This document shows, one piece after another, positions 23,010-30,961 of a stretch of DNA of 64,000 nucleotides (position 1 is the first letter of the stretch; the number at the start of each line of letters is the position of its first letter). Source of the stretch: Pseudomonas frederiksbergensis (GTDB lineage Bacteria; Pseudomonadota; Gammaproteobacteria; Pseudomonadales; Pseudomonadaceae); NCBI RefSeq assembly GCF_003732275.1, contig NZ_MOBM01000006.1:186001-250000 (forward strand), written 5' to 3'. Made by a program: the position numbers and the translations under genes. Under the pieces are notes generated by a model that was not told where the DNA came from, searched no databases, and was given only the letters and a program-made list of their open reading frames with translations.

Positions 23010-23945
23010 GTGAGTTATTTTCATAAGCTTATGAGTGAAAAGAATATGGGCGCAGGCAGCACGGTAATTCTGGATGGCGGCATGGGTCGTGAGCTGCAAC
23101 GCCGAGGGGCGCCGTTCAGGCAGCCTGAATGGTCCGCGCTAGCTTTAAGCGAAGCGCCGCAAGCTGTGGAGGCCGTGCACGCGGCTTATATCGAAAGCGG
23201 TGCCAACGTGATCACCAGCAACAGTTATGCGGTGGTGCCGTTCCATATTGGCGAAGAGCGCTTTTCCGCTGAGGGTCAGGCACTCGCGGCATTGGCCGGT
23301 GAACTGGCCCGTCGTGCAGTCGATGCGGCGGGCAAACCGGTGCGCGTGGCCGGTTCATTGCCGCCGTTGTTCGGCTCCTATCGGCCGGACCTGTTTGACG
23401 CCGCGCGGGTGACTGAACTGTTGACGCCTCTGGTCAATGGTCTGGCGCCTCATGTCGACCTGTGGCTGGCCGAAACCCAGAGCTCGATTATCGAGGCACG
23501 GGCGATCCATGCCGGTCTGCCGAAGGACGGCAAGCCGTTCTGGCTGTCGTTTACCTTGAAGGATGAAGATACTGACGAAGTGCCGCGTCTGCGTTCGGGT
23601 GAGCCCGTGGCTGAGGCTGCCGCGGTGGCGGCTGAGTTGGGCGTCGAGACTTTGCTGTTCAACTGCAGCCAGCCAGAAGTGATCGGCGCTGCGATTGATG
23701 CGGCGCGGGAAACCTTCGAACGCTTGGGGGTGAATATTCACATCGGCGCGTACGCCAATGCCTTCCCGCCGCAGCCGAAAGAGGCCACGGCCAATGACGG
23801 TCTGGACCCGTTGCGCGACGATCTCGACCCACCGGGTTATTTGCAGTGGGCGGCCGATTGGCAAAAGCGCGGGGCCAGCCATTTGGGCGGGTGCTGCGGG
23901 ATCGGGCCGGAGCATATTGCGGTGTTGGCCCAGAAATTGGCGTGA
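23010..23945 (+). CDS. mmuM: Homocysteine S-methyltransferase
   Basis: 311 residues. Transfers a methyl group from S-methylmethionine (or S-adenosylmethionine) to homocysteine to give methionine. Zinc ligands are visible as NCSQPE (Cys about 218) and the C-terminal pair GGCCGIGPEH (about 294-303); the N-terminal glycine-rich entry is ILDGGMGRELQRRG. The GTG at 23010 has AAGGA eight bases upstream; ATGs at 23031 and 23046 are alternatives. E. coli MmuM is 310 residues. Divergent from the ABC transporter genes. Confidence 0.88.
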   Translation: MSYFHKLMSEKNMGAGSTVILDGGMGRELQRRGAPFRQPEWSALALSEAPQAVEAVHAAYIESGANVITSNSYAVVPFHIGEERFSAEGQALAALAGELARRAVDAAGKPVRVAGSLPPLFGSYRPDLFDAARVTELLTPLVNGLAPHVDLWLAETQSSIIEARAIHAGLPKDGKPFWLSFTLKDEDTDEVPRLRSGEPVAEAAAVAAELGVETLLFNCSQPEVIGAAIDAARETFERLGVNIHIGAYANAFPPQPKEATANDGLDPLRDDLDPPGYLQWAADWQKRGASHLGGCCGIGPEHIAVLAQKLA

Positions 23946-23950
23946 TGCCA

Positions 23951-24042
23951 ATCCCGAGCAGGCTCGCTCCCACAATAGATCTTCAGTGAGCACGTATATT
24001 GTGTTCGACAACGATCCAATGTGGGAGCGAGCCTGCTCGCGA
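23951..24042. repeat. REP pair, family A
   Basis: Inverted cores at 23951-23974 and 24020-24042, between the convergent mmuM and GNAT genes. Confidence 0.9.
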
Positions 24043-24066
24043 TAGCGTCCGTCCGGGCGCCGAAGA

Positions 24067-24738
24067 TTACTGACGGCACTCAACCAGAGTTTTCACCTGC
24101 CCCGATTCCGTCTGGTTCTCATCAGACAGCCACCGCTCGAACCCCGCGCCAATCGCTGGCCACTCCGAATCCAGAATCGAATACCACGCCGTGTCTCGGT
24201 TCTGACCCTTGACCACCATGTGCTGACGGAACACCCCTTCAAAACTGAACCCCAACCGCTCCGCCGCATACTTGGAACGGGCATTGCCGTTGTTGCATTT
24301 CCATTCCAGACGCCGGTAACCCAAGGCAAAGGATTCTCTGGCCAGCAGGTAAACCGCCTCGGTGCTTCTTGGGGAGCGTTGCATCGCTGCGCCGAAGGTC
24401 ACATGGCCGATTTCGATGCGGCCCTGAGAAGGGACAATCGACATCAGGCTGAGAATGCCCTGCACGTCGCCGCTGGCGCGGTCGATCACCGTGAAGAAAT
24501 ACGGGTCGCTGTTGGCCGCGTGGTTGTTCAGCCAATCGTTGAAAACGCTGCGCTCCGGGAAAGGTCCGTAAGGCAAATAGTCCCAGAGTTTCGGATCCGA
24601 GCCCGGGCCTTCGAGGGCTTTCCACAAGCCGTCGGCGTGACGCGCCGGGTCAAGTTTTTCCAGGCGGATGAAACGCCCTTCGATCAGTTGAACCGAGGGT
24701 GGCGGAACACCTTTCCAGTCCGCGAGTGAAGTCGACAT
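24067..24738 (-). CDS. GNAT N-acetyltransferase, RimJ/RimL type
   Basis: 223 residues, one GNAT domain: FIRLEKLDPARHADGLWKAL at the start, GRIEIGHVTF (about 118-127), the acetyl-CoA region around SPRSTEAVYLLARESF, and RLEWKCNNGNARSKYAAERL, the RimJ/L-type C-terminal signature. Uses acetyl-CoA to acetylate an amine; substrate unknown. Last gene of a probable three-gene minus-strand operon behind paiB and a second GNAT, 17 bases after it. Confidence 0.85.
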   Translation of the reverse strand: MSTSLADWKGVPPPSVQLIEGRFIRLEKLDPARHADGLWKALEGPGSDPKLWDYLPYGPFPERSVFNDWLNNHAANSDPYFFTVIDRASGDVQGILSLMSIVPSQGRIEIGHVTFGAAMQRSPRSTEAVYLLARESFALGYRRLEWKCNNGNARSKYAAERLGFSFEGVFRQHMVVKGQNRDTAWYSILDSEWPAIGAGFERWLSDENQTESGQVKTLVECRQ

Positions 24739-25925: not shown

Positions 25926-27479
25926 ATGCCGAATCCGCCGCTTCCCTCGTCGTTCAATCCGGCGGGTATCGAACTCGACCGCCGTCAGGGCCTGAGTCGT
26001 CAGCTCTATCAAGCGCTGCGGGTGCGAGTGCTTGACGGACGATTGGCCAGCGGCACACGACTGCCGGCCAGTCGCGATCTGGCGGCGGCCTTATCGATTT
26101 CCCGTAACAGCGTGGTCCGTGCCTACGATCAGCTTTACGCTGAGGGCTTCATAGAGGGGCGTGTTGGCGATGGGACTTATGTCGCGCAATTGCCTCAAGC
26201 CCCGGCGTCGGGAAAAAAATTATCCACAAAAGTATCCACAGGGTTTTCAACAGGGTTACCCACAGCCTTATCCACAAATTGGCTGGATTTACCTGTGGTT
26301 TCATCCAGTAAAGTTATCCACAGCGGTGCTTTGGGCCGGGTTGAAAACAACCATCTGGCCTTGCCTCCCAGTGGTCCGCCTCGGGCATTTCGTGTCGGCG
26401 TTCCAGCCTTCGATCTATTTCCTTTCGAGGTCTGGGCCAAGCTGAACGCGGCTTTCTGGCGTAATCCGGATTTAGAGCAACTGTGTTACGGCGACCCTGC
26501 GGGTGATACACGATTGCGAGGGCTGATTGCTGCGTACTTGCGCAGTTCGAGGGGCATGCAGTGCTCGGCTGAGCAAATAGTGATCACCAGTGGCGCACAA
26601 CAGGGGATTAGCCTTTGTGCACAGTTGCTGGTGGAGCCTGGCGACGGGGTGGGGATTGAAAATCCGGGGTATCGAGCGGCGGGTCATGCGTTCGCTGTAG
26701 CCGGCGCGCGATTGCACGGGGTTGCGGTGGACAGTGAGGGCATTGATTGCACCGTATTGGCGGCGCTCAGCGATTGTCGATTGGCTTATGTCACGCCGTC
26801 GCATCAGTACCCGACCGGGGTGGTCATGAGTCTGGCGCGACGTCTTGAATTGTTGGCCTGGGCCGAACGCACCCAAGGCTGGATCGTCGAGGATGACTAC
26901 GATGGCGAATACCGTTACAGCGGTGCACCGCTGGCACCGTTGGCTGCGCTCGATCGGCAGGGACGGGTGCTGTATGTCGGAACCTTCGGCAAGGTTGCAT
27001 TCCCGGCATTACGACTGGGTTATCTGGTGTTGCCGCCCGGATTGGTTGAGGCGTTCTCTCAGCGTCGTGCGGTGGACGTGCGGCACTCGGAGGTCAGCAC
27101 TCAAGCAGTAATGGCTGAGTTCATGGCAGCCGGGCACTTCCAGCGACACATACGCCGTATGCGCCGTGCTGCGTTGAGTCGGCGTAACGTTTTGCTCAAT
27201 GGCTGGCCTGTGGATATCCCGGGCGTTGGTAAGCTGCCCAGTGTGGCGGCCGGTTTGCACCTGACGGTACGTGTCGACAGCGTGGCCCGTGAGCGCGAAT
27301 TGATCGAACAAGCCGCCAGCGTCGGGGTGGAGATCAATGGACTGAGCAGTTATTGGCTGCCGGACACAACGCTCCCCGAGGACCAGCGAGCGGGGCTGGT
27401 CCTGGGGTTCGCCGCAGTGCCGGAGACGGCTATCGAATCGGCACTGGCGAGGCTCAAAGAGATCTGGATTCCGATGTGA
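25926..27479 (+). CDS. MocR-family regulator (GntR HTH plus aminotransferase-like domain)
   Basis: 517 residues. GntR winged helix (about 12-85, GLSRQLYQALRVRVLDGRLA, SRNSVVRAYDQLYAEGFIEG), a linker (about 85-150), and a fold-type-I aminotransferase domain (about 155-510) with the PLP lysine in VGTFGKVAFPALRLGY. MocR proteins usually control the divergent gene, here paiB and the GNATs, in response to PLP or an amino compound. The linker is unusual: it is built from the tetrapeptides LSTK, VSTG, FSTG, LPTA, LSTN, encoded by tandem 12-base units that read as DnaA boxes (separate entry). Confidence 0.88.
   Translation: MPNPPLPSSFNPAGIELDRRQGLSRQLYQALRVRVLDGRLASGTRLPASRDLAAALSISRNSVVRAYDQLYAEGFIEGRVGDGTYVAQLPQAPASGKKLSTKVSTGFSTGLPTALSTNWLDLPVVSSSKVIHSGALGRVENNHLALPPSGPPRAFRVGVPAFDLFPFEVWAKLNAAFWRNPDLEQLCYGDPAGDTRLRGLIAAYLRSSRGMQCSAEQIVITSGAQQGISLCAQLLVEPGDGVGIENPGYRAAGHAFAVAGARLHGVAVDSEGIDCTVLAALSDCRLAYVTPSHQYPTGVVMSLARRLELLAWAERTQGWIVEDDYDGEYRYSGAPLAPLAALDRQGRVLYVGTFGKVAFPALRLGYLVLPPGLVEAFSQRRAVDVRHSEVSTQAVMAEFMAAGHFQRHIRRMRRAALSRRNVLLNGWPVDIPGVGKLPSVAAGLHLTVRVDSVARERELIEQAASVGVEINGLSSYWLPDTTLPEDQRAGLVLGFAAVPETAIESALARLKEIWIPM
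26220..26322 (+). repeat. Tandem DnaA-box-like array inside the MocR linker
   Basis: Five 12-base units in register at 26220, 26232, 26244, 26256 and 26268, and a further box at 26314. TTATCCACA is exact at 26220, 26268 and 26314; GTATCCACA (26232) and TTACCCACA (26256) differ by one base; TTTTCAACA (26244) is degenerate. All point the same way. TTATCCACA equals the strong E. coli oriC boxes. Confidence 0.85.
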
Positions 27480-29640: not shown

Positions 29641-29850
29641 TCTTGTTCTCCGCAGGCTGATTCGGTTGCACACAGTCTTGCGGCGGGCGGCGTTTGGGAG
29701 AACGGCAGGAAAGGCCAAAAGGGGATCGATCTGGCCAAAAGATTTGACCGAAATTCGCCCCTTAATGGCACGCCGGCGCCCTCGAATGATGCATCCGACC
29801 CTGTAGGTGCGAGCCTTGCCCGCGAAGCTTTTGGTGTACTTGAAGACGCC

Positions 29851-29942
29851 ATCGCGAGCAGGCTCGCTCCCACAGTAGTTTTGCGCCGCACACAAATACG
29901 GGGTTCTCTGAAGATCCAATGTGGGAGCGAGCCTGCTCGCGA
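29851..29942. repeat. REP pair, family A
   Basis: Inverted cores 29851-29874 and 29920-29942. A degenerate single copy precedes it at 29803-29826. Together they fill most of the 328-base gap between aphA and the AraC gene; the rest should hold the aphA promoter. Confidence 0.88.
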
Positions 29943-29968
29943 TGGCGGCATTCAGGACGCCGCAGAAC

Positions 29969-30961
29969 TCAAGGCCTGAACTGGCTGGGCGCCACACCAC
30001 TCCAGCGCACAAACGCATGTCGGAAGCTCGCGGTTTCGCTGAACCCCAACGCTTCGGCAATCCGATAGATCGGCAGTTGATCTTCGCAGAGCATTCGCTT
30101 GGCCTGCTCGAAGCGCAACTCATCGAGCAGTTCCTGATAGCTGCAGCCCAGGTCCTTCAGATGTCGCCGCAGGGTGCGCGCCGAGCAGTTCAACTGTTCG
30201 GCCAGCCCGTCCAGGCCCGGCGCCGCGCTCAGCTGCGCCGCGAGTAGTTGGCGGATACGCCCGAGCCAGGCCTGACGCCCGGTGAATTCGGTGTTTTGCT
30301 TGCGACAACGTTCGGCCATGGCCTGGTGCGTGATGGCGTCGGCCAGAGGCAGGGGTTGTTCAAGCCAGCGTTTGTCGAAAGCAAAGGCATTGGACACAGC
30401 ATCGAACTGCAAGGGGCAGTCGAAACGCTCAGCGTAGCGCGCCTGATAATCCGGTGCCGGGTAATCGAAGCGGGCGCCGAGCAGAGGCAAAGGGTGGCCG
30501 AGCAGGTCTTCGCAGGTGACTTTCATCGAGACCAGGCAAAACTCGACATTGAACGGCGCCAGCGCCGGATTTTCCCGATAGTCGCCCGCGGTGAGCCAGA
30601 TGCGCTTGCCATCTTCTTCCAGGCTCAACTCGAACAGTGTTCCCAATAGCGCCGGATAGTGCAGCGCCAGCCGCAAGGCGTCACCTAAAGTGGCGCTGGT
30701 GAGTAAGGCATACCCGAGCATGCCGTAGGACGAAACATGCATCCGCCGGCCCAACTCCAGGCCGATATCGCGGCGTAATGCGACGGCGTTGGCACAAACC
30801 AGCATCTCTTGATTGGTGGTGATGCGCGTGTCCGCCCGGCTCAGATCCGCCGCGCTGATGCCGCTGCCGGCCAGCAATGCCTCGCTGGACAGGCCTTCGG
30901 CCTTGAAGGTGTTGAGCACCAGGGAGACGGCGTTGAGGGTGGTGAGATGGGAGTGGAGCAT
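29969..30961 (-). CDS. AraC-family regulator
   Basis: 330 residues. N-terminal AraC arabinose-binding-like domain of the PF12625 kind (about 20-200, with the pattern ELGRRMHVSSYGMLGYALLT) and C-terminal double HTH (about 230-330, LNCSARTLRRHLKDLGCSYQ, YRIAEALGFSETASFRHAF). Same strand and just upstream of aphA and the polyamine-binding gene, so it may control them; no operator was recognised. The layout is that of the OruR/ArgR-like subgroup that senses amino compounds. Confidence 0.83.
   Translation of the reverse strand: MLHSHLTTLNAVSLVLNTFKAEGLSSEALLAGSGISAADLSRADTRITTNQEMLVCANAVALRRDIGLELGRRMHVSSYGMLGYALLTSATLGDALRLALHYPALLGTLFELSLEEDGKRIWLTAGDYRENPALAPFNVEFCLVSMKVTCEDLLGHPLPLLGARFDYPAPDYQARYAERFDCPLQFDAVSNAFAFDKRWLEQPLPLADAITHQAMAERCRKQNTEFTGRQAWLGRIRQLLAAQLSAAPGLDGLAEQLNCSARTLRRHLKDLGCSYQELLDELRFEQAKRMLCEDQLPIYRIAEALGFSETASFRHAFVRWSGVAPSQFRP

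Follow-up and report, generated by a model that had tools for sequence, protein, structure and literature searches.

A MocR-type regulator gene of Pseudomonas carries within its open frame a replication-control candidate of about 400 bases, in which an array of DnaA boxes, a further downstream box and a predicted Fis site are kept as DNA. The codon usage of the orthologues indicates that the array boxes are under DNA-level selection, and on the evidence of the alignments the element is a stretch of some 400 bp of DNA written inside coding sequence. The element is conserved as DNA in most of the Pseudomonas genomes examined, and we consider it probable that it acts as an oriC-proximal sink for ATP-DnaA which limits re-initiation. 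The binding of DnaA and Fis, and the sign and mode of action, are predictions from the sequence.

The window, i.e., the whole stretch of DNA that was analysed, comprises bases 186001-250000 of contig C44 in a genome of 7.2 Mb (G000). The closest named matches of the host gene come from Pseudomonas sp. QTF5 and P. mandelii (97%). GntR and aminotransferase domains were found in its product with the repeat units in the linker between them, in agreement with the earlier note, which had called the host a MocR regulator. A paiB-type FMN-binding gene is divergent from the MocR gene, with two acetyltransferase genes beyond paiB, and MocR and paiB are adjacent in 147 of 150 loci. Elsewhere in the window, open frames at 23837-24083 and about 29800-30050 share a recurring GSEPARD-type peptide, which suggests that they are short intergenic repeat elements. 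An Rfam search of the 64-kb window returned zero family matches. The features of the gene are as follows.

25926..27479, plus strand: MocR-type regulator gene, host of the element; open reading frame of 517 aa, Pfam GntR at 23-86 and Aminotran_1_2 at 185-425.
26220..26228, plus strand: array unit 1, TTATCCACA (exact); at most one mismatch in 145 of the 158 array-bearing orthologues.
26232..26240, plus strand: array unit 2, GTATCCACA (one mismatch); at most one mismatch in 113 of 158.
26244..26252, plus strand: array unit 3, TTTTCAACA (two mismatches), the weakest; at most two mismatches in 127 of 158, at least three in 31.
26256..26264, plus strand: array unit 4, TTACCCACA (one mismatch); at most one mismatch in 150 of 158.
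26268..26276, plus strand: array unit 5, the anchor box, with TTATCCACA; 155 of 158 have it exact and 3 with one mismatch.
26314..26322, plus strand: box 6, TTATCCACA, read in another codon frame (GTT ATC CAC); exact in 123 of 158, one mismatch in 6.
26433..26456, plus strand: third synonymous-constraint block, TGGNNCAAG..GCTTT, from the constraint scan of array-bearing genes.
26571..26585, plus strand: predicted Fis site GAGCAAATAGTGATC (GnnYAnnnnnTRnnC, AT core); its AT-core form is carried by 157 of 158 genes with the array and by 0 of 22 without it.
26615..26623, plus strand: box 7, TTGTGCACA (one mismatch to TTATNCACA); present in all 158 genes with the array and in none of the 22 without it.

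The linker holds five units of the same orientation in exact 12-base register within the open frame, encoding the peptides LSTK VSTG FSTG LPTA LSTN. This is the arrangement that the earlier note had described, and the coordinates from 26220 to 26268 confirm it. Its count of three exact boxes, two units with one mismatch and a degenerate one also holds, as 26220, 26268 and 26314 are exact, 26232 and 26256 have one mismatch and 26244 has two. The third exact box, box 6, lies 46 bases beyond the five-unit array. The word TTATCCACA, which had been named as the strong DnaA box, is identical with the high-affinity DnaA box of P. putida as given in PMC4285127. In the window TTATNCACA was observed five times against 0.74 expected, a number that none of 100 shuffles reached, and the array is the sole occurrence of an exact TATCCACA-N4-TATCCACA pair in the whole 7.2-Mb genome. 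When up to three mismatches are allowed, the whole genome has 55 matches to the TATCCACA pair versus 33 to the reversed pattern, so weak pairs of this kind are common genome-wide. Further groups of DnaA boxes were seen in the same genome at C13:128-807, with six TTATNCACA in 680 bases, and at C21:139420-139660.

The first set of orthologues, listed among 199 Pseudomonas genomes, comprised 150 that were fetched and 149 that were usable. Thirty of the more diverged matches of a second search were added, and the 180 orthologues compared were finally split into 158 array-bearing and 22 array-less genes. Summed over the five units, the mismatches (of 45) number 3-7 in carriers and 23-27 for the best stretch of the 22 array-less genes. 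The gene L231 (G161) was kept apart from this split; its array is degenerate with a total of 11 mismatches, its linker holds no exact box, and box 7 is retained. L147 (G034) was excluded from the codon counts, as its extracted frame contains stops; these lie upstream of codon 97, the MocR gene may be broken there, and the array is visible and intact. The box words are nearly fixed in the 149 genes, in which protein identity has fallen to about 70%. The array is common to 79 of 80 named loci, 78 by scan and in addition L323, which shares a contig with L091 and was scanned as array-less only owing to an earlier gene start within its locus; L311, labelled P. putida strain ASAD, is without array, box 7 and Fis-like core. 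Box 6 is lost (at least four mismatches) in 29 of the 158 carriers. Three genes (L221, L222 and L223, from G010, G173 and G124) have an in-frame, repeat-like insert with GCGAGCAGGCTCGCTCCCAC ahead of the array, by which the linker is lengthened and the array retained.

That the position is near oriC in related genomes, as had been proposed, is borne out by the distances to dnaA. Among the carriers on a single contig (n = 43), the median distance is 93 kb, 42 are within 160 kb, and in 42 the gene is on the upstream side of dnaA and on the opposite strand; the outliers are G029, at 1.34 Mb from dnaA, and G125, on the other side of dnaA. The 54 genomes considered for this count yielded these 43 carriers and five array-less genomes, and left out were G000 for its many contigs, G080, whose gene is in two pieces, and four genomes without the gene. 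The array-less MocR gene is likewise near dnaA in three of the five, which means that the position predates the array and gives no evidence for array function; closeness to oriC was therefore dropped as support for function. In the present genome dnaA is on the same contig at about 103 kb, so the array does not sit beside dnaA in the manner of an oriC, and the upstream region of dnaA has exact boxes of its own.

In the mechanism that we favour, DnaA would first bind unit 5, the strong one, and from there would extend head-to-tail along the other four, weaker units. With their 3-base gaps, these units are within the range of 2-3 bases reported as best for cooperative DnaA binding. Gaps of this size between DnaA boxes are described as promoting cooperative head-to-tail assembly (PMC8682772), and for T. 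maritima DnaA the best binding of same-orientation boxes is reported at a 2-base gap (PMC10316083). Box 6, box 7 and the predicted Fis site would complete the DnaA complex. As its distance from dnaA is mostly 50-160 kb, the array would be copied shortly after initiation, and the duplicated array would then remove free ATP-DnaA, by titration or by datA-like stimulated hydrolysis, when re-initiation has to be avoided. A single strong box accompanied by weaker ones, close to the origin, is in keeping with a site that would collect ATP-DnaA once it has itself been duplicated, and this combination, together with the analogy to oriC-proximal clusters, favours negative control. Either titration or stimulated hydrolysis may be the mode of action.

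The array was also found in genomes that do not have the gene. A MocR orthologue is present in 376 of 398 Pseudomonas genomes, and the triple-unit pattern matches in 316 of 398 (reversed pattern, 18), a count that takes in chance matches or other repeats (e.g., G080, G229, G240, G259, G356 and G378) and misses some real arrays (G051, G086 and G091, in which boxes were seen). Three of the 22 MocR-less genomes (G037, G043 and G249) still have the array at the syntenic site next to the acetyltransferase genes; its distance from dnaA is 53 kb in two of them and 103 kb in one. Of the other 19, with several incomplete assemblies among them, 18 had no match to the pattern. The 3-mismatch match in G240 was judged to be a chance one. 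No further MocR or paiB piece was found in the 3-kb loci of G043 and G249, and a search of the two genomes at E 1e-10 gave no paiB relative; the bases flanking the array also align in part between these two, which probably represent a single loss event. In G037, weakly matching MocR and paiB fragments surround four units, and a 39% paiB relative is encoded elsewhere. Box 7 and the Fis-like block are gone with the gene in the gene-less genomes, and persistence is seen for the array only. A scan of 44 genomes for arrays elsewhere gave six matches, i.e., three array-bearing controls, G037, G043 and G080, the last a single 3-mismatch site. Outside the genus, 25 of 193 genomes have matches with two or three mismatches, ten of them to one recurring sequence in one genus, and the array sequence itself was met only in G518, where it may be a contaminant. 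The recurring sequence, shared by the ten genomes of genus g6, is a 3-mismatch triple-unit match, TTTCCACCAYGTTTTCAACAA.GTTATCAACA, and a different site.

These genomes bear on the rival that survives best, namely that DnaA bound inside the gene acts, as a roadblock or co-regulator, on the transcription of MocR, paiB or the adjacent acetyltransferase genes and not on replication. DnaA is known as a transcription factor (PMC8203912), and the array, which lies some 300 bases into the gene and some 385 bases from where paiB starts, would be placed for such a role next to a neighbour that is nearly constant; yet it persists where the local MocR and paiB are deleted or decayed, and all three carriers in which paiB is missing from the flank examined (L032, L127 and L146) have kept it. 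That the parts are distributed over 400 bases of the open frame, downstream of its start, also speaks against transcription control, whereas the position of the array right next to an acetyltransferase gene in G043 and G249 speaks for it. As the array persists without both genes, control of MocR or paiB is the less likely form of this idea, and the acetyltransferase genes may be its targets; on the whole we regard transcription control as unlikely. Of the interpretation offered in the earlier note, the part concerning DnaA titration or replication timing has gained from the constraint on the DNA and from the survival of the array near dnaA without the gene, and the part concerning control of MocR or paiB by DnaA has been weakened.

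The proposed ATP-DnaA sink extends beyond the array to box 7 (26615) and the Fis-like site (26571), which are additions to the parts listed in the earlier note. A sliding synonymous-constraint scan of 148 genes, evaluated at the 5% permutation level, gave peaks at codons 112-115, 173 and 231-234. Box 7 falls within the last peak and has the same orientation as the array. Codon 230 is CTT in 100% of the carriers, as compared with at most 24.1% at other Leu columns, and a lone Ala to Ser change in L226 turns box 7 into TTGTTCACA, which is altered at the free position of the box. The predicted Fis site, GARCAAATWGTGATC, is located just upstream of box 7 and matches the Fis consensus as printed in PMC8682772 and PMC4585315. 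The bare consensus is also met in 10 of the 22 array-less genes, and the AT-rich core is the specific part. Base composition may add to the contrast in the AT core between carriers and array-less genes and is an unlikely explanation of CTT in 158 of 158. The middle peak of the scan, at codon 173, corresponds to the block at 26433-26456, which reads TGG NNC AAG ... GCT TT, with short AAGC/GCTT arms.

Of 181 genes, 156 have array, box 7 and Fis-like core together, 22 have none of the three and 3 are mixed. L087 and L273 are array-less yet nested among carriers, and both are without box 7 and the AT-core form, branch supports near L273 being weak. Parsimony gives three changes for the array (two of them forced by well-supported branches), four for box 7 and five for the Fis-like core. 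A sign test of co-loss had two independent pairs (p 0.5) and was not significant, so that co-loss rests on the 156/22/3 split and the two nested losses. The co-occurrence of the three parts, with few independent events, is suggestive of one element, and the distribution on the tree indicates that this element is dispensable and has been lost more than once.

The joint occurrence of the Fis-like site and the array could also be expected of a DARS-like element, i.e., of positive control by the reactivation of ADP-DnaA with Fis, and the parts here extend over about 400 bases, not far from the 455 given for DARS2 (PMC8682772). Boxes I and II of DARS2 are, however, described as interacting head-to-head (PMC8682772), whereas the seven conserved boxes here are co-oriented. 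The boxes common to most carriers are all on the plus strand, and minus-strand boxes are limited to some carriers (27272, exact in 27 of 158; 27377, exact in 39 of 158; 26654, one mismatch in 46 of 158), exact ones at the positions matching 27272 and 27377 being absent from this window. In the coding sequence, which was scanned for IHF sites, no position is within one mismatch of either consensus in 80 or more of the 158 carriers. Since the carriers do not share a conserved inverted pair, a DARS-like role is less likely, and we consider it rather improbable.

The constraint on the DNA is most evident in the codons. At codons 111 and 115 of the 158 carriers, TTA encodes 98.7% and 98.1% of the Leu residues, as against at most 19.1% in Leu columns beyond the array; ACA makes up 93-100% of Thr at the five array columns and at most 20.3% elsewhere; and TCC, ACA, GTA and GTT follow the pattern of TTA in the array columns. 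Third-position agreement is 0.93 in units 1, 2, 4 and 5, versus 0.62 in the remainder of the gene and 0.65 at conserved residues. Codon 99 is L, I or V and codon 103 is V, L or I in many genes, with TATCCACA intact, and the exact box word is found across the carriers 189 times in frame 0 and 124 times in frame 1. Fixed rare codons, residues that vary while TATCCACA is kept, and a box 6 in another frame together show selection on DNA. In none of the 158 carriers are the peptides retained in array-destroying codons, which was the check proposed in the earlier note; the 22 of 180 orthologues that lack the repeat altogether, an outcome that it had counted against the array, are read here as element-less lineages.

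Selection on the peptide, under which the xSTx repeat of the linker would be the important feature and the codon choice a side effect, agrees with the high conservation of several S and T residues of the units in the 149 orthologues. It is at odds with the rare codons fixed at the array columns, with first-base residue changes that leave TATCCACA intact in many genes, with the frame of box 6 and the location of box 7 in another domain, and with the retention of the array in gene-less genomes, and we hold it to be very improbable. Neutral 12-base expansion with an accidental resemblance to DnaA boxes, put forward earlier as the simpler explanation, can appeal to 12 bases being four codons and to the 12-base repeats of different sequence in G229 and G259, and it is scarcely credible in view of the same array in nearly every named locus, units that differ from one another and are each conserved in their own form, and the contradiction by the codon columns and three gene-less genomes. 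Codon columns, conservation and gene-less arrays led us to reject both. The repeats of G229 and G259 are tandem copies of GATCAACAGCCA at several sites, unlike DnaA boxes in sequence.

Beyond a sink for ATP-DnaA, the parts could form a complete DnaA-Fis replication-control switch that runs for about 400 bases through two protein domains, with the linker lengthened and the codons fixed to hold it, so that selection near the origin would keep the site and not the protein; we put this forward tentatively, as somewhat less likely than not.

In the open-licence literature, outside which most subscription journals lie, no datA, DARS or DnaA-box cluster was found described in Pseudomonas. The new aspect is a replication-control candidate embedded in coding sequence. 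If the proposal is true, Pseudomonas gains a candidate replication-control site in which synonymous recoding separates the DNA function from the protein function, and such sites can sit in coding sequence, where they are invisible to intergenic scans. Several known systems share part of its design. The oriC of T. maritima likewise has five DnaA boxes in a DnaA-oligomerising region (PMC10316083); unlike the array it is an origin with an unwinding element, and its box 2 is inverted. Box V and FBS2-5 of E. coli DARS2 provide a strong box beside low-affinity boxes with gaps of 2-3 bases and Fis sites (PMC8682772), the Fis site of the present element being a predicted one, whereas the head-to-head boxes I and II and the IHF through which DARS2 acts were not found conserved here. 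E. coli datA resembles the element in having several DnaA boxes, in being dispensable and in its conserved position relative to oriC, and an ATP-DnaA oligomer is reported to form on its boxes (PMC4585315, PMC10950094). In contrast to the present case, datA is described as intergenic, beside a tRNA operon, and with an IHF site (PMC10950094). As neither a conserved IHF site in the coding sequence nor an inverted box pair was found, the element was not filed as datA or DARS. Its boxes are close together and near oriC, and it likely behaves like an oriC-proximal DnaA-box cluster. The clusters of this kind in B. subtilis (DBC; Okumura 2012) are reported to titrate DnaA and to have reduced function when moved to the terminus (PMC5010248). 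DnaA-box clusters near oriC are common to both organisms; the Pseudomonas cluster differs in lying in coding sequence, in its 12-base register and in its Fis-like site, and its titration of DnaA is predicted.
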